Positions 14,060-29,293 of a stretch of 32,253 bases of DNA are shown here, in pieces; within the stretch, counting starts at the first letter, position 1; each line of letters starts with the position of its first letter. A model generated the notes under the pieces. The model had not been told where the DNA came from and ran no database searches. It saw only the letters and a list, made by a program, of their open reading frames with translations. Source of the stretch: Lentisphaerota bacterium (GTDB taxonomy: Bacteria > Verrucomicrobiota > Kiritimatiellia > RFP12 > UBA1067); the NCBI GenBank assembly GCA_012838435.1, contig DUPH01000167.1, forward strand, positions 1-32,253. Reading direction: 5' to 3'. The position numbers and the translations under genes are program-made.

Positions 14060-15328
14060 TCACTCCCACTCGATGGTGGCAGGCGGCTTGCTGGTGATGT
14101 CGTACACCACGCGGTTGACCTGCGGCACGTTGGTCGTGATCTGCTCCGAGATTTTCTCAAGGATGTCCATCGGAATCTTGACGAACCGTGCGGTCATGAA
14201 GTCGGTGGTTTGCACCGCGCGCAGTGCCGCCGTGTAGGCGTAGGTGCGCGCACCGTCGGTGACGCCGACCGAGCGGTTGCCGGTCAGCGCTGCGAAGTAC
14301 TGGCTGGCTTGCTTCTCAAGTCCGTTGTCGACGATCGCCTGACGGAAGATCGCGTCGACCTCACGCAGGATGTCGAGCTTCTCCTTGGTTAGTTCGCCGA
14401 TACAGCGCACAGCCAGACCAGGGCCGGGGAACGGTTGGCGCATGGCGATTGAAGCGGGGATGCCCAGCGCCAGCGCGACTTGGCGGACTTCGTCTTTGAA
14501 CAGGTATTTGATCGGCTCCAGCAGTCCTTTGAAGTCGATGTTTTTGGGTAGCCCACCGACGTTATGGTGCGCTTTGACCGACTTGCCGCCTTCGCCGCCG
14601 CTCTCGATGATGTCGGGATAGATCGTGCCTTGTACCAGAAAATCGGGTGCACCTGCGGCACGTGCCTCCTCCTCGAACACGCGGATGAACTCCTCGCCGA
14701 TGATCATGCGTTTGCGTTCCGGATCGGTGATACCGGCCAGCTTGTTCAGGAACCGGCGCTCGGCGTTGACGTGGCGCAGCGCGATACCGAAGCCATCGCG
14801 GAAAACCCGGGCGACCTCCTCGGGTTCATCCTTACGCATCAGGCCGTGGTCGACAAAGACACAGGTGAGTTGATCGCCGATTGCACGGTGGACCAACACC
14901 GCGCAGACCGAGGAATCGACGCCGCCCGACATCGCCAGCAGCACCTTGCGGTCGCCGACCGTCTCGCGGATATCGGCGATAGCATCCGCGATAAAAGCCT
15001 CGATCGTCCAATCCTGCCGCAGGCCGCACTGCTTGAGCAGGAAGGGTTCGATGGTTGCCGTGTCGCACGGCAGGTCATTGAGATCGAGCACCGGCACACC
15101 GAACGCGGCGGGGTCGGCGGTGGGGGTGCGTCCCAGCGTGGCTTCGCCGCAGGTCGCGCCGCGTTGCAGGATGATCGCCTTGGGCTTCAGCGCGGCGATT
15201 CGCTCGGCCGGTGCCGTGTAGGGCAACACCTCGCAATACACCTTGAGCGAACGAACAATTTTAGCGGCGGCCTGACTGTTAATGGCGCCAAAATCCAGAA
15301 TCACGACCGTGTCATGCGTTGTTTTCAT
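14060..15328 (-). CDS. guaA: GMP synthetase with a degenerate, catalytically incomplete glutaminase domain
   Basis: A 422-residue GuaA; usual bacterial GuaA is about 510-525. The ATP-pyrophosphatase half is complete: P-loop S-G-G-V-D-S-S at 134-140, KSVKAHHNVGGLP, QPFPGPGLAVRCIGE and the dimerisation end PATIEWE. It converts XMP to GMP. The N-terminal amidotransferase is cut to about 100 residues. The first strand V-V-I-L-D-F-G (8-14) and VYCEVLP are kept, but G-G-P reads Q-R-G, and the G-x-C-x-G nucleophile block and both His/Glu of the triad are missing. The sequence jumps from FGVPVLDLND straight to the C-G-L-R-Q-D-W joint. GGAGGAGAG directly precedes the ATG. The enzyme should depend on free ammonia or on a separate glutaminase. 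Confidence 0.93.
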   Translation of the reverse strand: MKTTHDTVVILDFGAINSQAAAKIVRSLKVYCEVLPYTAPAERIAALKPKAIILQRGATCGEATLGRTPTADPAAFGVPVLDLNDLPCDTATIEPFLLKQCGLRQDWTIEAFIADAIADIRETVGDRKVLLAMSGGVDSSVCAVLVHRAIGDQLTCVFVDHGLMRKDEPEEVARVFRDGFGIALRHVNAERRFLNKLAGITDPERKRMIIGEEFIRVFEEEARAAGAPDFLVQGTIYPDIIESGGEGGKSVKAHHNVGGLPKNIDFKGLLEPIKYLFKDEVRQVALALGIPASIAMRQPFPGPGLAVRCIGELTKEKLDILREVDAIFRQAIVDNGLEKQASQYFAALTGNRSVGVTDGARTYAYTAALRAVQTTDFMTARFVKIPMDILEKISEQITTNVPQVNRVVYDITSKPPATIEWE

Positions 15329-21604: not shown

Positions 21605-22795
21605 CTAACGTTCCAGTGCGATCCCGCGCCGAATATAGGTCGGCACATCGAGATCCTGTCCCTCATGCAATGTGGGTTCCACGTCGCGGAACTTGCCGCG
21701 TCCGGTTGCGCCGAAGGAGAGCTTGCTGCCTTTCATGCGACTACGCCGGCTTCCCGGCTGGATGGGGAAGGTGTCGGCCACCGGCGGTTCCGCAGCGCTA
21801 GGCGGCACGGCATCCGTGGCCGCCGGAACAGGCTGGCCGACTGCGGCACTCCAGCTTTCAAACGAGAGGGCGACCAGTTCGATGCGCCCTTCATACCGCG
21901 CATCGAGCACTGTGCCCATTTCAAACAAACAACCTTTTTTAGCATGGCGGCGTAACGCATCCATGACCTCGCCGATTTCAGCCAGCCGCAAATCGGGACC
22001 AGCTAGAATGCCCAGCATCACAGCGCTTGCCTTGGTCAACGAGTCACCTTTGCGCAGCAGATGGCAGCTCTTGAGCGCCTCGACCGCATGACGCGCACGA
22101 TCCGCTCCAGAGGCTGACGCAAAACCCAGGCGCGCATTGCCACCTGTCAGCACCATGGTATGCAGTCTTTCGGGATCAAGTTGGATGAAGCCTGGCTTGG
22201 TCAACAGCCGCCACAGCAGCGTCACGCCTGCAGAAATCAAATTTTCCGCAACCTGAATCGCATCGGCCAGCATTTCTTCGTGCGCGTCGCTGAACAGATC
22301 ATCCAGCGGGATTACGATCAGCGAATCCGCCGTCTCCTCAATCATCGGCAGCACACGGGAAGCCAACTTTGCGCGGGCATCACCCTCAAAGGTGAATGGC
22401 CGCGTGGCAAAGCAGACGGTGGCCAAGCCCATATCGTGCAAGGCTTTGATAATCTCAGGCGTGGCACCACCGCCCGTGCCGCCGCCCAAACTTGCGAGGA
22501 TCACCACCGTTCTCACATCCTGCATTTGGGCGCACAGTGTTTCAAGATCATCTTGTGCGGCCAGACGCCCGAGAATCGCGTCGCCGCCTGTGCCGTGGCC
22601 GGAGAGCCGCGAGCCGCCAAGCAGCACAGTCGGTATGCCGGCACCAGCCGCAGTGCGTAACGGCTGCGCGTCCGTATCGACACACAGTACACGCAGACCC
22701 TCACCGTAGGCGGCGCGGACCGACGCGGCAAGACGGCAACCGCCGCCCCCCACGCCGAGCAAAAGCAATCCTGTATGTTGTTGCTCCTGATTCAT
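21605..22795 (-). CDS. ftsZ: Cell division protein FtsZ, divergent
   Basis: A 396-residue tubulin-like GTPase that forms the division ring. Recognisable parts are the G-V-G-G-G-G loop (14-19), the T4 loop at 104-111, the R-P-F-T-F-E-G block (132-138) and the E-T-A-D-S-L-I-V-I-P segment. The C-terminal peptide D-L-D-V-P-T-Y-I-R-R at 381-390 binds FtsA and other partners. Several normally invariant positions differ. The T4 loop is GGGTGGGA instead of GGGTGTGA. The T1 Asn is replaced (GGCRLA). The T7 motif N-x-D-F-A-D reads Q-L-D-P-E-R at 205-210, so the last catalytic Asp is Arg210. The ATG overlaps the ftsA stop by four bases. Confidence 0.95.
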   Translation of the reverse strand: MNQEQQHTGLLLLGVGGGGCRLAASVRAAYGEGLRVLCVDTDAQPLRTAAGAGIPTVLLGGSRLSGHGTGGDAILGRLAAQDDLETLCAQMQDVRTVVILASLGGGTGGGATPEIIKALHDMGLATVCFATRPFTFEGDARAKLASRVLPMIEETADSLIVIPLDDLFSDAHEEMLADAIQVAENLISAGVTLLWRLLTKPGFIQLDPERLHTMVLTGGNARLGFASASGADRARHAVEALKSCHLLRKGDSLTKASAVMLGILAGPDLRLAEIGEVMDALRRHAKKGCLFEMGTVLDARYEGRIELVALSFESWSAAVGQPVPAATDAVPPSAAEPPVADTFPIQPGSRRSRMKGSKLSFGATGRGKFRDVEPTLHEGQDLDVPTYIRRGIALER

Positions 22796-23991
22796 CGCCT
22801 GAACAACCCCCTAAAGATGTTTTTGACCGGTGCCAGCACACCACGGTCTTCATAGGTCATGTGTCCGTACAAGGCCAGACCGGCCGCTGTGCACAGCGCG
22901 GCGGGCTGATCCTCCTGCTCCAAACCGTCGACATTCACCGGCACACCGATGCGGCACGGTGCGCCGAAAACGCGCTGGGCCAACTCGGTGACTCTGCGCA
23001 GATAAGCGCCGCCGCCCGTCAGCACCACACCGCCGCCGACATGCGGCAACACACCGGCCTCGTGCAGTCGCGCACGTACCACGCGCAATGTCTCATCCAT
23101 GCGCGCATTGATCACCGTGTGCAGTGCCTTGCAACTCAGCGTGCGCTCCTCAAAACCTACGGCAGTCTTCAGCGTGATCCGCTCCGTTCCACTCTCCGCA
23201 TCAATCAGCGCGGAACCTTCGGTACGTTTCAACTCCTCGGCACTGTTCTGCGGAATGTTAAATGCCAAGGCGATGTCATTGGTGACGTGATCGCCGCCGA
23301 CCGCCACACTGCCGAGCGCCACAACCACATCGTTGCTGTAGGCGACGTAGTTTGTGGTGCCGCCGCCCAGATCGATCAATACCACGCCGTTGCGTTTTTG
23401 CTCCACCGTCAGTGCCGCCAAAGCCGCGCACACTCCTGAAAAAGCCACATCGACCACTTCCAGACCCGCGCTTTTCGCCACATTGACTGCGTTCTCGATC
23501 CGGCTCTTTACGCCGTGTACCGCCATGACGTTCAGTGAGAGCATTTTGCAGCGCATGCCCTCCGGCTTGACGATTCCGGGCTGATCGTCCACCGTGAACG
23601 TTTGGGTGATCGTGTGCAGCACTTGCCGATCAGGATCGAGATGCACTTCCTTGGCGTTTTCAATCACCTCTTCGATGTGGTCACGCGAAACCACGTAATC
23701 GCTCGAGCGGATTGTCAACATCCCCGGATTGACAGTAGTCATGATATGGCCGCCGGACAACGCCAGCAACACCTGCCAAATACTCACGTCCGATTGCTTC
23801 TCGGCTTGCTTCACCGCCGTTTCAACACCCGTGCGCGCCTGCGTCACATCGAATATCTGGCCTTTTCGCACACCGGTCGTGGGATAGGACCCCGTGCCGG
23901 TGATCTTGACGCGACCATTCTCAGACTCGCCCACGCACACCACGGTGCGCGACGTGCCGATCTCTAACGCCGCTATTGGAGGAATCGCCAT
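22792..23991 (-). CDS. ftsA: Cell division protein FtsA
   Basis: A 399-residue actin-like ATPase that tethers FtsZ to the membrane. The first phosphate loop is A-L-E-I-G-T-S-R-T (8-16), the second V-L-I-D-L-G-G-G-T-T-N near 200-212, and the adenosine motif V-V-L-T-G-G-G-A-Y-L lies in the last third. The C-terminal A-P-V-K-N-I-F-R-G-L-F-R-R is the amphipathic membrane-targeting helix. Start 23991 is preferred over the longer frame at 24042 because it gives the conserved N-terminus and avoids overlap with ftsQ; AAGGAAGAGG lies upstream. Its stop overlaps the ftsZ start, so the FtsA and FtsZ levels are translationally linked. Confidence 0.95.
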   Translation of the reverse strand: MAIPPIAALEIGTSRTVVCVGESENGRVKITGTGSYPTTGVRKGQIFDVTQARTGVETAVKQAEKQSDVSIWQVLLALSGGHIMTTVNPGMLTIRSSDYVVSRDHIEEVIENAKEVHLDPDRQVLHTITQTFTVDDQPGIVKPEGMRCKMLSLNVMAVHGVKSRIENAVNVAKSAGLEVVDVAFSGVCAALAALTVEQKRNGVVLIDLGGGTTNYVAYSNDVVVALGSVAVGGDHVTNDIALAFNIPQNSAEELKRTEGSALIDAESGTERITLKTAVGFEERTLSCKALHTVINARMDETLRVVRARLHEAGVLPHVGGGVVLTGGGAYLRRVTELAQRVFGAPCRIGVPVNVDGLEQEDQPAALCTAAGLALYGHMTYEDRGVLAPVKNIFRGLFRR

Positions 23992-24010
23992 ATGCCCTTG
24001 CCTCTTCCTT

Positions 24011-24883
24011 TCATTGAACCCCCACTGGCATCGCGAAGACACGATCGGGCAGCGTCGCGTCCCACATCATCCTCGGTTTGCCGATCTCACTTTCCATGGC
24101 CTTCGCCAAATTGTCAAAATGCCGCTGCATTAGCACGTCGGGTTCTTTCAGGTCATTCGCCATCCCGCGCCATGCAAACTTCGCCTGACGGTAATCAGAG
24201 AAGGTCAGTAACAGATAGTCTTCTTTGGACGCATCCACCGCCAGTAACCGCATCGAACATTCGGGCCGCAGCGTACTATGGATCAAGCGCACCGCAGCCA
24301 ACTCGTTGCCGTGCAGGCGTTCGCCGGGCTTGATCTGCGAAAACTCTGTGCCCTTGATGAGCGGCAGTCCCCCCGTACCCGCGTAACGGATGAACACCAC
24401 GCCTTCTTTATCGACTACGCGGCCGTGTGACCCCACACGCGCGATCGGCTCGCGCTCTACGATCGTGATTGCCAGTTTGTCCGGCATGCGCCGCACGATG
24501 GAAATCTCGCGGATGTTCGGTGCCTGCTCCAACAGTTCGCGCCGCTTCTCCTCAATCGGGATCGAGAAGAGGTTGACTCCCTCGCGCAGTCCGAGTTTTT
24601 CGCAAATCAGGTCGGGCGTCAGCGTCCGCCCGGTCACGATCACCACCGAACTGCGCAGGTCGCGCAACACGAACAGCGACTGCCCCTTGAAATAGTAGGC
24701 GATGAACAGCTTCCACACCCCCCACACGCCGAGCAGCAACACGACGACACAGGCCATAAGCGCGGCCGTAAGTTTCACGCTGGCTGGCAGATCCGTCACG
24801 ACGCCAGTCACACGCCGACCGCTTTTCATGAGCCGGTTGCCCCGTTTTTTACCCTTGCTCCCTATGGACAGTTTCCACTTCAT
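24011..24883 (-). CDS. ftsQ: Cell division protein FtsQ
   Basis: A 290-residue bitopic membrane protein. A basic cytoplasmic tail (1-35, Lys/Arg-rich) precedes one membrane helix at about 38-62. A POTRA domain at about 70-145 (I-V-T-G-R-T-L-T, R-M-P-D-K-L-A-I-T-I-V-E-R-E-P) and an FtsQ-type beta domain follow. FtsQ connects the cytoplasmic ring with the periplasmic peptidoglycan machinery. It lies between ddl (19 bases upstream) and ftsA (19 bases downstream of its stop), the classic dcw order. The overall sequence is divergent, as usual for FtsQ, and the call rests on domain order plus position. Confidence 0.9.
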   Translation of the reverse strand: MKWKLSIGSKGKKRGNRLMKSGRRVTGVVTDLPASVKLTAALMACVVVLLLGVWGVWKLFIAYYFKGQSLFVLRDLRSSVVIVTGRTLTPDLICEKLGLREGVNLFSIPIEEKRRELLEQAPNIREISIVRRMPDKLAITIVEREPIARVGSHGRVVDKEGVVFIRYAGTGGLPLIKGTEFSQIKPGERLHGNELAAVRLIHSTLRPECSMRLLAVDASKEDYLLLTFSDYRQAKFAWRGMANDLKEPDVLMQRHFDNLAKAMESEIGKPRMMWDATLPDRVFAMPVGVQ

Positions 24884-24902: not shown

Positions 24903-25799
24903 TCATCCGCAGGCCGCGCTTTCCACTAACCGCGCGCACAACGCACTGAATGAAATCCCCGCTTGGGCCGCCGCCTTAGGCAACAGGCTTGTCGACGTGA
25001 ACCCTGGCACCGTATTGATTTCCAGCACGTACGGCTTCCCGTCAGGCGTTACCCGGAAGTCCACGCGGCTCACGCCACGACATCCCACCGCTTTAAACGC
25101 CACCAGCGCCAGCACTTGACACGACGCCACCAGCGGCCGGTCCTCTTCCGCTTGCGGAAATGCGTAACGCGTCACACCTGCTGTGTACTTCTCCTGAAAG
25201 CCATACCAATCATGCGGCGTCTGAATCTCAACCACCGGCAACGCCTCGCCATCAAGCACGCCCACCGTCCACTCGCGGCCCGGTATGTAGGTCTCCACCA
25301 GCACCTCGCCCTGCGCGTCAACCTCACGCGCCGCCGCCAACGCGGCCGGCCACTCGTCCGCAACGTTCACCTTGGTGATGCCGACGCTCGATCCGTCGCG
25401 CGGCGGTTTTACCACCACCGGCAACGACAGCGTGGTCTCCGACACACCGCGCGGCAGCACCTCGTAGGGCGCGGTCGGCACGCCCGCCCGTTCCAGTACA
25501 CGCTTGGTGGCGATCTTGTCGATCGTAATCCGGCTGGCCGCAGCGCCCGGCCCGGTGTACGGCAACCCCAGACGATCCAGATCGGCCTGCACGCCACCAT
25601 TTTCGCCGTACCCGCCGTGTAACGCGATGAAGACCGCTTGGATGCCTTCGGGTAGCCCCTCCAATTGATCCCGCTCCAGCACCACCGGCCGCGCATCGTA
25701 TCCCGCCGCCTCTAACCCCTCAACCACCGCAGCACCCGACCGGAGCGACACTTCGCGCTCGTTGGAGGTCCCGCCCATGATGACCGCAACCCGTTTCAT
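24903..25799 (-). CDS. ddl: D-alanine--D-alanine ligase
   Basis: A 298-residue ATP-grasp enzyme that makes the D-Ala-D-Ala dipeptide for peptidoglycan. Motifs in order: V-A-V-I-M-G-G-T-S-N-E-R-E-V-S-L near the start, F-I-A-L-H-G-G-Y-G-E-N-G-G-V-Q, the ATP-binding V-V-V-K-P-P-R-D-G-S-S-V-G, E-K-Y-T-A-G, and the Mg2+ site V-L-E-I-N-T-V-P-G-F-T. It is full length. Start 25799 (ATG) is preferred over an in-frame TTG at 25808. A 101-bp inverted-repeat element separates it from murC-murB upstream, which may affect its expression. Confidence 0.97.
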   Translation of the reverse strand: MKRVAVIMGGTSNEREVSLRSGAAVVEGLEAAGYDARPVVLERDQLEGLPEGIQAVFIALHGGYGENGGVQADLDRLGLPYTGPGAAASRITIDKIATKRVLERAGVPTAPYEVLPRGVSETTLSLPVVVKPPRDGSSVGITKVNVADEWPAALAAAREVDAQGEVLVETYIPGREWTVGVLDGEALPVVEIQTPHDWYGFQEKYTAGVTRYAFPQAEEDRPLVASCQVLALVAFKAVGCRGVSRVDFRVTPDGKPYVLEINTVPGFTSTSLLPKAAAQAGISFSALCARLVESAACG

Positions 25800-25824
25800 A
25801 TCGTTCAATCCGCTCTCTCATCTA

Positions 25825-25928: not shown

Positions 25929-28247
25929 CTAAAAAAAACCGCTAACTTCCGCCGTCAGCCGCACGTCATTGTGGCGCACGACACGACCGCGCATCCGCAT
26001 CACCACCGCCAACACATCCGAGGCTGTTGCAGTCCTGTCGGTCGCAACAATGTTCGCATGAAAATCCGTCACGTACGCGCCGCCGATCCGCATGCCCTTG
26101 CACCCCGCTGCATCCAACATGCGTCCGGCGGCCGTGCCCTCCGGATTTTTGAAAACCGATCCCGCGCAGCGCAACCCCGAAAGGGGCATCCGCTTGGCGC
26201 GCACTGCCTTCCGCAACGTTGCGACCTGCTCCGGTGTCGTGCGTTCCAGCCGCAATCCGCAAGCCAACGCGACACACCCGGCCAGCCCATCACACCGACG
26301 GTAGCCAAATCCACAATCGATAGCGTCCAGTATAGCGATTTCACCGACCGGATTCAAACAGCGAATCCAAGCAACTCGCGCCCCGATTTCGCCACCGTGC
26401 GCTCCGGCATTCATCGCCAGCCAGCCGCCCAGCGTGCCCGGCACGCTATCAAGACACTCAAGCCCCGAAAACCCCTCGCGCTCCAGCCGATCCAGCAGCG
26501 CTGGCCCCATCCAGCCGCACTCCGCCGTTACCTCGTCACCATGCACGTCGAATCCCCGGAACGCTCCCGGCGCGAAGCGGACCACGCAGCCTGCTTCGCC
26601 TAGGTCGCTGAACCAGGAGTTGGCGCCCGCCCCCACAAAGCGCCAGTTCACCCCGTGCGCGTTGCACAAACGCACCACGGCCGTCAGCGCCGCTTCGTCG
26701 ACGACCTCGACGCGCCAACGTGCCCAGCCGCCGACCTGATAATAGGACCAGTGCGTCAACGCACCGAACGGCACCGCCTCAACCCCTGGCAACGCCCTCA
26801 ATGCCGCCTCAAAACCTTCGGGGTCTCGGTGTGCCGGCCAACCACGCGCGAGATCTGCGCGGATCAAGTCGACCATGCCGATCACATCACCAGCACCCGC
26901 GATCACTACCAAATCACCCGACGCCAGTGTCAGCCGCAGGTAAGCCCACGCCTCCTCCAGCGTGCGCGCCAGTTTGAGGCGCGGGCCGATGCGCGGTGCG
27001 GATACGGCGGTGTCAGCATGCTGCGGGCTATCAGAGTGACGGAAGTGGGCATACAGGTCTTCGATGCAACCGCCGTCCAGCGGCGTTTCGGAAGCCGCAT
27101 AAACCGGTAGCAGGATCACTTCGTCGGCTTCGGCAAAAGCAGGAGGGAATTCTGGCCCCAGCGCCAGCGTACGCGTGTAACGATGCGGCTGGAAGAGCGC
27201 GACCAGACGCGCCGGACGCTCTTCGCGCGCCATTGCCAGCGCGGCTTTCAGTTCGGCCGGATGGTGCGCGTAATCGGCGATGATCCGAATGCCCTGCACA
27301 TCCGCCACGCACTCATAACGGCGTCCCGGCAGTTCGTCACAGGCGCGCGGCAGCGCCGCAAACACAGCCTCAGGCGCATGACCCAGCAACAGTGCGGCAG
27401 CGGCGGCGCCCAGCGCGTTGACGGCGTTATGTTGTCCGGCCACGCCCAAGGCGATGTGCCCTTGCGATACGCCGCGCCACGTCACGTCAAACGTGACGCG
27501 CCCCGCTTCGACGCGAACATCCGTCGCACACAGATCGGCATCCGCCGCCAGACCGTAACGCAGCAGCGGCACCGTGGCTGCGGCACCCACTTGGTCGGCT
27601 CGCGCGTTGTCACAGCAGACCGCGACACCTTCGCGCGTGCGGGCAACGACCGAGGCAAAACAGGCGGTCAGCGCGGTCTCGCCATCGAAGTGCTCCAAAT
27701 GATCCAGATCAATGCCGGTGAGCACTGTGACAGCGGGCGCATACTGCGCAAGTGTGCCGTCGCTTTCATCCGCTTCCGCCACCAGCAGATCACTGTTGCC
27801 GCAGCCCGCCACGCCGCCGAGGCGCGGCGTGGTGCCGCCAATGCACCACTCCGGCACAGCCCCCAATTCTTGCAGTAACCGCGCCGTGAAACAACTCGTG
27901 GTGGTCTTGCCGTGTGCGCCGCAGACAGCGATGCCGCGTGCGTCCGACACCAGCTTCGCCAGTACCTCGCCGCGACGGAAGACCGGCAGGCCCCGTTCAT
28001 GCGCGGCGAGCAATTCGGGGTCGGAAGCCGGGACCGCTGGTGTGACGATCACGCAGTCGACGTTTGTCAGATGGGCGGGATCATGGCCTTGCTCGACGCA
28101 TACGCCGTACGTGCGTAGCCAGTCGGCCCACGCATTCAGGTGCGCGTCGCACCCGCTCACACTCCAGCCGCGCCGCGCAAGCAGATAGGCCACGCCGGCC
28201 ATGCCCACGCCGCAGATGCCCTGCATGTGTACATGACCAACTACCAT
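25929..28247 (-). CDS. murC-murB: MurC-MurB fusion (UDP-MurNAc-L-Ala ligase / UDP-GlcNAc-enolpyruvate reductase)
   Basis: A fusion of about 772 residues. The N-terminal 450 or so are MurC: dinucleotide-type start H-M-Q-G-I-C-G-V-G-M-A-G, ATP loop G-A-H-G-K-T-T-T-S at about 110-118, D-Y-A-H-H-P-A-E-L and F-Q-P-H-R-Y-T-R-T. The C-terminal 300 or so are MurB: FAD-binding Q-V-G-G-W-A and V-G-A-G-A-N-S, F-G-Y-R-R, and the proton donor Ser near 697 in G-S-V-F-K-N-P-E-G. Its final E-V-S-G-F-F includes the catalytic Glu near 767. The two enzymes catalyse consecutive steps (MurB then MurC). A longer frame starts at 28301 inside sppA. ATG 28247 overlaps the sppA stop. MurB/MurC fusions are known from Verrucomicrobium spinosum. 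Confidence 0.95.
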   Translation of the reverse strand: MVVGHVHMQGICGVGMAGVAYLLARRGWSVSGCDAHLNAWADWLRTYGVCVEQGHDPAHLTNVDCVIVTPAVPASDPELLAAHERGLPVFRRGEVLAKLVSDARGIAVCGAHGKTTTSCFTARLLQELGAVPEWCIGGTTPRLGGVAGCGNSDLLVAEADESDGTLAQYAPAVTVLTGIDLDHLEHFDGETALTACFASVVARTREGVAVCCDNARADQVGAAATVPLLRYGLAADADLCATDVRVEAGRVTFDVTWRGVSQGHIALGVAGQHNAVNALGAAAAALLLGHAPEAVFAALPRACDELPGRRYECVADVQGIRIIADYAHHPAELKAALAMAREERPARLVALFQPHRYTRTLALGPEFPPAFAEADEVILLPVYAASETPLDGGCIEDLYAHFRHSDSPQHADTAVSAPRIGPRLKLARTLEEAWAYLRLTLASGDLVVIAGAGDVIGMVDLIRADLARGWPAHRDPEGFEAALRALPGVEAVPFGALTHWSYYQVGGWARWRVEVVDEAALTAVVRLCNAHGVNWRFVGAGANSWFSDLGEAGCVVRFAPGAFRGFDVHGDEVTAECGWMGPALLDRLEREGFSGLECLDSVPGTLGGWLAMNAGAHGGEIGARVAWIRCLNPVGEIAILDAIDCGFGYRRCDGLAGCVALACGLRLERTTPEQVATLRKAVRAKRMPLSGLRCAGSVFKNPEGTAAGRMLDAAGCKGMRIGGAYVTDFHANIVATDRTATASDVLAVVMRMRGRVVRHNDVRLTAEVSGFF

Positions 28248-29293
28248 GACCAGTGGTACAGCAACCGGCGTTCCGTCGCTTCCATGAGCCATTGCCGCCA
28301 TCCCGTATCCACCCCGATCCCGGGACGGGGCGAAAAGATGTCGCGCAGGGTCACATGCTCTTCATACCGAATCACCTTGATCGCCTTGGTGTTCAGCAGT
28401 TCCGCCATCGCCGCCTGCGCATCCGTATTGTAGCCGATTGCGTCGATCAATTTATGCTGCACCGCTTCGGCGGCCAGAAACACACGTCCGTCTGCGAGCG
28501 GTGCCACAGTCTCTTTCGGCAACTTGCGGTTTTCAGCCACCAACCCCACAAAGCGCTCGTGCATCGCCGCGATCACCTTTTGCAGCAGCTCCTTTTGCTC
28601 AGGCTTGACCTCATGAAACGGATTCAAAAGATCCTTGTTGGCGCCGGACTTGATCGTCACGTCCTGAACGCCCAACTTCGCCGCCAGGTCTTTGAAGTTG
28701 TACGACTGCATGATCACGCCGATCGAACCGGTCAGCGTCGTCGGATGCGCCAAAATCCGGTCGGACGCCAGCGCGATGTAATACGCGCCCGACGCGGCCA
28801 CATCGCCCATCAACGACACGATGTAACGTCCTTCCTGGGCTTTTTTGAAATCCAGCAGTGCCTTGTAGATAATGTCGCTGTCCGTGATGCCGCCGCCACC
28901 GCTGTTGATCTCCAGCAGAAGCCCCCGCACCTCGGGGTCGTGCGTTGCGCGGCGGATCGAGCGCAACACCGTGTTGGCGTTGCCGGCATACCATGCCGAA
29001 TCACCCAACATGATCATACCGTTGACCGGCACACGCACGACCTTCAAATCGCCCGCGCCGGACGACCAGCGTTCGATCATGTCTGGAGCTTCGTCCTCGC
29101 CCACACCATAGGCGGTGTTGTACGGTCGCATCAGGCTGTCCAGAGGAGAGCCTTTTCGCGCCGAAAGAGCGCCTAGGCTTCCCGCCAGCGCCAGCGCGGT
29201 CAATACGCCGAGACCGACAAACAGAATGACAATCAGCGCGCAACCGAATCCACATCCGCGCCCTTTACGAGTGTTACCTTGATTTTCAGCCAT
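28241..29293 (-). CDS. sppA: Signal peptide peptidase SppA (S49 family)
   Basis: A 350-residue membrane-bound serine protease with one N-terminal membrane helix (about 15-42). The catalytic Ser168 lies in D-V-A-A-S-G-A-Y-Y and the catalytic Lys220 in S-G-A-N-K-D. The 52-residue spacing equals that of short, Bacillus-type SppA. The substrate-groove loop N-S-G-G-G-G lies at 130-135. It degrades cleaved signal peptides in the membrane. GGGAGG precedes the ATG by six bases. It is the first gene of the run into murC-murB, whose start overlaps its stop. Upstream, 29294-29560 has no gene; a TATTAT-like -10 box (29322-29327, minus strand) is possible but unpaired with a good -35. Confidence 0.94.
   Translation of the reverse strand: MAENQGNTRKGRGCGFGCALIVILFVGLGVLTALALAGSLGALSARKGSPLDSLMRPYNTAYGVGEDEAPDMIERWSSGAGDLKVVRVPVNGMIMLGDSAWYAGNANTVLRSIRRATHDPEVRGLLLEINSGGGGITDSDIIYKALLDFKKAQEGRYIVSLMGDVAASGAYYIALASDRILAHPTTLTGSIGVIMQSYNFKDLAAKLGVQDVTIKSGANKDLLNPFHEVKPEQKELLQKVIAAMHERFVGLVAENRKLPKETVAPLADGRVFLAAEAVQHKLIDAIGYNTDAQAAMAELLNTKAIKVIRYEEHVTLRDIFSPRPGIGVDTGWRQWLMEATERRLLYHWSW

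Follow-up and report, generated by a model that had tools for sequence, protein, structure and literature searches.

The ftsZ Gene and Its Locus

The window, which here means the whole stretch of 32,253 nucleotides that was analysed, contains ddl, ftsQ, ftsA, and ftsZ in this order on one strand, so ftsZ is found at its dcw position after ftsQ-ftsA. A murC-murB fusion lies upstream of these four genes. The same fusion is reported for Verrucomicrobium spinosum as well.

25929..28301, (-) strand: murC-murB fusion (Pfam domains)
24903..25808, (-) strand: ddl, D-Ala-D-Ala ligase (profile matches)
24011..24883, (-) strand: ftsQ (POTRA_1, 34.6 bits)
22792..24042, (-) strand: ftsA, with an ATGA overlap with ftsZ (TIGR01174, 312.2 bits against a cut-off of 175.85)
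21605..22795, (-) strand: ftsZ, 396 aa, ATG start (open reading frame, Pfam, and AlphaFold2/Foldseek match)

An earlier note on this DNA called the last of these open reading frames FtsZ. The open reading frame is real, and the identification stands with the specification that it lies on the minus strand. The intact ftsQ-ftsA-ftsZ order described there is supported by the profile matches and by the ATGA overlap. The protein scores over the cut-offs of both Pfam models, Tubulin (PF00091, 82.2 bits) and FtsZ_C (PF12327, 42.5 bits), and is below the cut-off of the NCBIfam equivalog TIGR00065 (171.8 versus 295.2 bits). FtsZ far under its equivalog model and FtsA above its own indicate divergence of FtsZ next to a partner, FtsA, that is still recognisable. 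The AlphaFold2 model of the protein has a mean pLDDT of 86.4 and a pTM of 0.77, and Foldseek places it closest to solved structures of FtsZ, with 8h1o at the top (E 1.2e-33, TMt 0.90). The closest named records are proteins of Kiritimatiellae or Verrucomicrobia MAGs, at most 93 percent identical.

The window genome (4.0 Mb, 90 percent complete) contains one FtsZ, with a single PF00091 match. A second ftsZ, which the earlier note had proposed to look for and which might supply the missing acid, was sought in this genome with the window protein, and only a chance-level match (E 0.08) was seen. Among 60 genomes of relatives, including that of the window, 57 contain exactly one tubulin-family match and three contain none; the three are 67, 72, and 89 percent complete. 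All 32 genomes with at least 90 percent completeness and at most 5 percent contamination have one match each. With one tubulin-family match per genome, no alpha-like partner is seen. The ftsA gene is directly upstream of ftsZ at 42 of the 57 loci of the order; it was not found at seven, and eight have too little DNA, which makes 42 of the 49 loci where the available DNA was long enough. The window protein is the genuine and sole FtsZ of its cell, a derived type common to most of one order of Kiritimatiellae.

Residue Changes in the Window FtsZ

The window protein was compared with four solved FtsZ proteins: 9isk (Klebsiella pneumoniae), 2vaw (Pseudomonas aeruginosa), 2vam (Bacillus subtilis), and 1rlu (Mycobacterium tuberculosis). 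Positions are numbered as in chain 9isk_A, which we take to be identical to the numbering of Escherichia coli FtsZ. The following sites are concerned.

22676..22678, (-) strand: codon of D40, position 43, T2 loop, Asn in canonical FtsZ (alignment)
22511..22513, (-) strand: codon of R95, position 96, Asp and an interface salt-bridge residue in characterised FtsZ (alignment)
22466..22486, (-) strand: T4 phosphate loop GGGTGGG, glycines intact (translation; G105 and G107 in 57 of 57 order members)
22160..22198, (-) strand: T7 loop, residues 200-212, KPGFIQLDPERLH (translation, gapless alignment, order-wide motif)
21608..21655, (-) strand: C-terminal FtsA-binding-type peptide, DLDVPTYIRRGIALER (motif [LYFI]DxP[TSA])

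The T7 loop reads Q-L-D-P-E-R. As the earlier note described, the second Asp is replaced by Arg, and both the translation and a gapless alignment bear this out; among characterised FtsZ proteins nearly all have this Asp, which takes part in splitting GTP. In this alignment Q205, D207, E209, and R210 of the window protein correspond to positions 207, 209, 211, and 212, so the loop carries N207Q, F210P, A211E, and D212R and keeps D209. The hydrolysis motif N-x-D-x-x-[D/E] is not found. Glu209 of the window protein was put forward as a possible catalytic acid, but it is not favoured: the alignment places it at position 211 instead of 212, and Glu is missing from this position in 14 of 57 order members.

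The T1 loop is GGGGCRL. The loss of its Asn is confirmed, and the residue is Arg (N24R). Further changes against the solved proteins are N43D, D96R, T110G, and N165L, and D45, G69, G71, G105-G109, E138, R142, and D209 are retained. The T4 loop is LGGGTGGGA against the signature GGGTG[T/S]G. The glycines and Thr108 are kept and T/S is replaced by Gly; this T110G change is minor, with the signature glycines intact. N24 and the H7 residues (F182 and N/D186) are taken here as guanine readers. N165 in T6 is described in a review as contacting guanine (PMC8456036). By these residues, the part of the GTP pocket that serves Mg and phosphate is conserved, and the guanine-reading residues are not. D96R, the loss of the guanine readers, and the parallel with tubulin discussed below were overlooked in the earlier note.

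The window protein resembles canonical FtsZ (9isk/8h1o, 2vaw, 1rlu, and 2vam) in its fold, the T4 glycine box, E138/R142, the FtsA peptide, and the dcw position. It differs in the T7 loop (Q-L-D-P-E-R instead of N-x-D-x-x-D/E), in Arg in place of D96, and in the absence of the T6 Asn, N24, and the H7 base readers.

Conservation in the Order and Distribution in the Phylum

The 57 FtsZ proteins of the order were compared with 55 other proteins of the class, from 37 families, and 68 other proteins of the phylum, from 29 families. Each family contributes one to four proteins, except family f40, which contributes 21 of the 68. Automatic retrieval of the top scorers supplied some of the class and phylum proteins and manual selection the others; those of f40 were mostly retrieved automatically. 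Uncounted rows are four tubulins (L031-L034), nine members of a second tubulin-like family (L164, L186, and L188-L194), and the fragment L166. This second family is seen in several other Verrucomicrobiota genomes, with the motifs GGGTGNG, SGNTGNI, and DG[HN][IV]D-ED, and was not seen in the order of the window. It is possibly the FtsZ-like family described by Makarova and Koonin.

The T7 change had been presented as a peculiarity of one protein. This is too narrow, as Asp is absent from position 212 in all 57 order members and in 49 of the 68 phylum proteins. In the order it is basic in 45 (R 40, H 4, and K 1), mostly within a conserved D-x-E-R motif. In the remaining twelve the residue at 212 is not basic, and in some of these it is Ser or Thr. 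D209 is kept in 49 of the 57 members and E211 in 43. Positions 209 and 212 are both non-acidic in eight. At position 96, 48 members have R and two have H, so 50 are basic there; the other seven have S or A. D43, G105, G107, and E138 are present in all 57 and R142 in 52. N207 is present in four, and Q47 ranks 267 of 295 by entropy. N165 is seen in six, all of family f4.

In the other proteins of the class, at least one acid is present at 209/212 in 55 of 55, and both are acidic in 27; Asp is found at position 96 in 34. Of the 68 phylum proteins, five have acids at both sites; 20 have T, 19 D, and 13 A at position 212, and 47 have D and 11 G at position 209. The full T7 motif N-x-D-x-x-[D/E] is found in none of the order proteins, in 16 of the 55, and in one of the 68. 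The motif N-x-D-x-x-D, by which FtsZ is often recognised, is thus incomplete in most Verrucomicrobiota proteins sampled. The FtsZ proteins of other Verrucomicrobiota are similar to those of the order in the frequent loss of one T7 aspartate, and different in that position 212 is mostly T, D, A, or S and N165 is kept in 63 of 68. The FtsZ of Verrucomicrobia has been described as one of the most divergent (PMC9871819).

These counts indicate that the loss of one T7 acid is ordinary in the phylum and that the loss of D212 alone is nothing special. What is unusual in the order is the conserved reversal to a basic residue together with D96R and the losses in the base pocket. Outside f4, 44 of 51 order proteins carry a basic residue at both 96 and 212, compared with none of the 55 and two of the 68. 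N24, N165, F182, and N/D186 are all lost in 33 of 57 order proteins, against four of 55 and one of 68. Altered catalytic residues of FtsZ in Kiritimatiellota and basic T7 residues in FtsZ were absent from the titles and abstract openings listed by searches of open-licence papers.

In the phylogeny the order forms one clade (SH-aLRT 96). Family f4, with six proteins that lack both arginines, is the earliest branch (99), and the remaining 48 rows form a group (97). This maps both charge reversals and the loss of the T6 Asn to one part of the tree. The tree was built by a quick method with no bootstrap from 160 of 181 rows, the reference included, after 16 near relatives and five incomplete or doubtful rows were dropped; 13 T7 and pocket columns (24, 43, 165, 182, 186, and 207-214) were omitted, and position 96 was left in. 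Independent-pair tests on this tree, with too few informative pairs, did not support a repeated joint change of 96 and 212.

Chance and a sequencing or binning error are ruled out by the recurrence of the T7 trait in 57 genomes of the order, that of the window included. An alignment artefact is ruled out by re-alignment to a profile made without order sequences, which gave the same order counts at the 12 positions rechecked. A pseudogene is ruled out by dN/dS.

C-Terminal Peptide and Selection

The tail of the window FtsZ carries DLDVPTYIRR, so the C-terminal FtsA-binding peptide is kept, as had been noted. The FtsA-type peptide [LYFI]DxP[TSA] is found in 54 of the 55 complete FtsZ proteins of the order. 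At locus L062, an FtsZ at 662-1810 on the (-) strand has no FtsA peptide and its C-terminus departs from the usual tail, which is probably a frameshift or an assembly error.

The ratio dN/dS was computed pairwise over the core for 17 pairs. It is 0.054-0.078 in five pairs of the window's genus and 0.042-0.120 in the remaining f1, f5, and same-class pairs tested; across all nine f1 pairs it is 0.04-0.12. The ftsZ of the window's genus is thus under strong purifying selection, at 0.05-0.08. One f6 pair gave 0.27, and the three f3 pairs ranged from 0.12 to 0.34. Selection may be relaxed in family f3. All six FtsZ proteins of f3 (L077, L079, L082, L083, L085, and L087) have a one-residue deletion in T4, reading GGGT-SGA or GGGT-AGA. 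With this deletion and an elevated dN/dS, these proteins may bind nucleotide differently or no longer bind it.

The FtsZ of the window is confirmed as a real, clade-wide, and conserved variant, and the interpretation in the earlier note is supported in part.

A Possible Tubulin-Like Filament Interface

Tubulin position 254 presumably corresponds to FtsZ position 212, judging from the shared motif. In beta-tubulin, K254 of T7 is reported to prevent hydrolysis of the GTP of alpha-tubulin, and in alpha-tubulin E254 at the same position is catalytic (PMC13394414). In Staphylococcus aureus FtsZ, D210 and D213 in T7 of the top subunit hold the catalytic water and N208 is a K+ ligand; the bottom subunit contributes the arginine-finger-like R143, and a salt bridge at the interface joins R67 (bottom) and D97 (top); the mutations D46A, R143Q, N208L, D210N, and D213N abolish assembly (PMC8936486). 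With an offset of one, these residues correspond to D209, D212, N207, R142, K66, D96, and D45 in 9isk_A numbering. In E. coli, D212A filaments are reported to form and hydrolyse slowly, and D212G is reported as functional in division (PMC4383033). D212G is also reported not to complement an ftsZ null without suppressors (PMC5405962). Total loss of hydrolysis would thus need compensation elsewhere.

The loss of assembly in S. aureus D213N and the slow hydrolysis of E. coli D212A/G lead naturally to the prediction that GTP hydrolysis is altered in the window FtsZ. By analogy with tubulin, there is about an even chance that its filament is re-wired, with an interface like the tubulin N-site and slow or absent GTP hydrolysis. 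On the face that docks onto the GTP of the neighbour, D212 in T7 and the salt-bridge residue D96 have both turned basic. The face that holds GTP has kept its phosphate and Mg residues and gained an extra Asp (N43D), with the Asn of the K+ site and the guanine readers lost. R212, and possibly R96, could reach to the gamma-phosphate of the neighbour, like Lys254 of beta-tubulin at the internal N-site. GTP would then be mainly interface glue, hydrolysed slowly or never, and filaments might turn over via slow residual hydrolysis through D209, via subunit exchange, or via partner proteins. Because the filament is single-component, a basic residue at 212 predicts this kind of interface throughout. 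The twelve order members in which 212 is not basic speak against this reading.

The likeness to beta-tubulin T7 (K254 facing the non-hydrolysed N-site GTP; AtubA K248) is that a basic residue stands where hydrolysing interfaces are acidic. In the tubulin heteropolymer such interfaces alternate with active ones, whereas the window FtsZ is alone and every interface would be of the N-site kind. The same position is altered in E. coli D212A/D212G and S. aureus D213N. Unlike these laboratory mutants, the variant is natural and order-wide, basic instead of neutral, and accompanied by many further interface changes. It can be speculated, more doubtfully, that this applies to the whole order: every filament interface would be of the N-site type, the nucleotide (GTP or another) would be structural glue held on the arginines of the neighbour, nothing would be hydrolysed, and the Z-ring would do without GTPase-driven treadmilling.

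The main rival, a possible but rather unlikely one, is a rebuilt active GTPase in which R212 acts in trans as an arginine finger replacing K+, N207, and D212, while D209 positions the water. Hydrolysis would then probably continue independently of K+. The retention of D209, which swings to place the catalytic water, in 49 of 57 order members and of the arginine-finger-like R142 in 52 would suit a still-active enzyme too, and the K+ ligands N207 and Q47 are free to vary. A positive function is also suggested by the D-x-E-R motif and by the strength of purifying selection. Against this, beta-tubulin also retains the Asp corresponding to D209, and there the basic residue accompanies non-hydrolysed GTP. 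R and H are moreover interchangeable at 212, and S or T occurs in some order members. The E. coli D212A and D212G results allow both the N-site-like interface and the arginine finger.

It is unlikely that the protein simply behaves as an ordinary FtsZ, with the second T7 acid dispensable in the phylum, one acid enough, and the arginines only re-tuning the interface. The small number of proteins with acids at both sites (27 of 55 in the class, five of 68 in the phylum) and the presence of at least one acid in all 55 class proteins agree with this idea, and in V. spinosum ftsZ is reported as essential, with division by binary fission (PMC12283558). However, eight order members have no acid at either site, the charge is reversed beyond mere loss, and the base-reading residues are gone too. 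A decaying FtsZ, which has lost its GTPase by relaxation in a cell divided by another system, is very improbable. The T4 deletion and higher dN/dS of f3 would fit such decay, but the low dN/dS of the nine f1 pairs, the intact open reading frames, the near-universal FtsA peptide, the upstream ftsA at most testable loci, and the presence of FtsW/RodA do not.

With the arginine kept across most of the order, these cells may have a division ring whose handling of GTP is unlike that of textbook bacteria. The debate on whether Z-rings depend on GTP hydrolysis and treadmilling has drawn on laboratory mutants such as D212A/G. The order apparently offers a natural experiment, an order-wide and selectively maintained replacement of D212, mostly by Arg, in a sole FtsZ. 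It could be a natural single-component counterpart to the non-hydrolysing interface of tubulin.

Other Features of the Window and Its Genome

MinC and MreB were sought in the 90 percent complete window genome without a match, and the MreB model finds only ftsA. The cell may not be rod-shaped. Three FtsW/RodA matches are present in the genome. In the window, an open reading frame at 14060-15328 on the (-) strand, with no Pfam match to a glutamine amidotransferase, is GMP-synthase-like and has the C-terminal domain.
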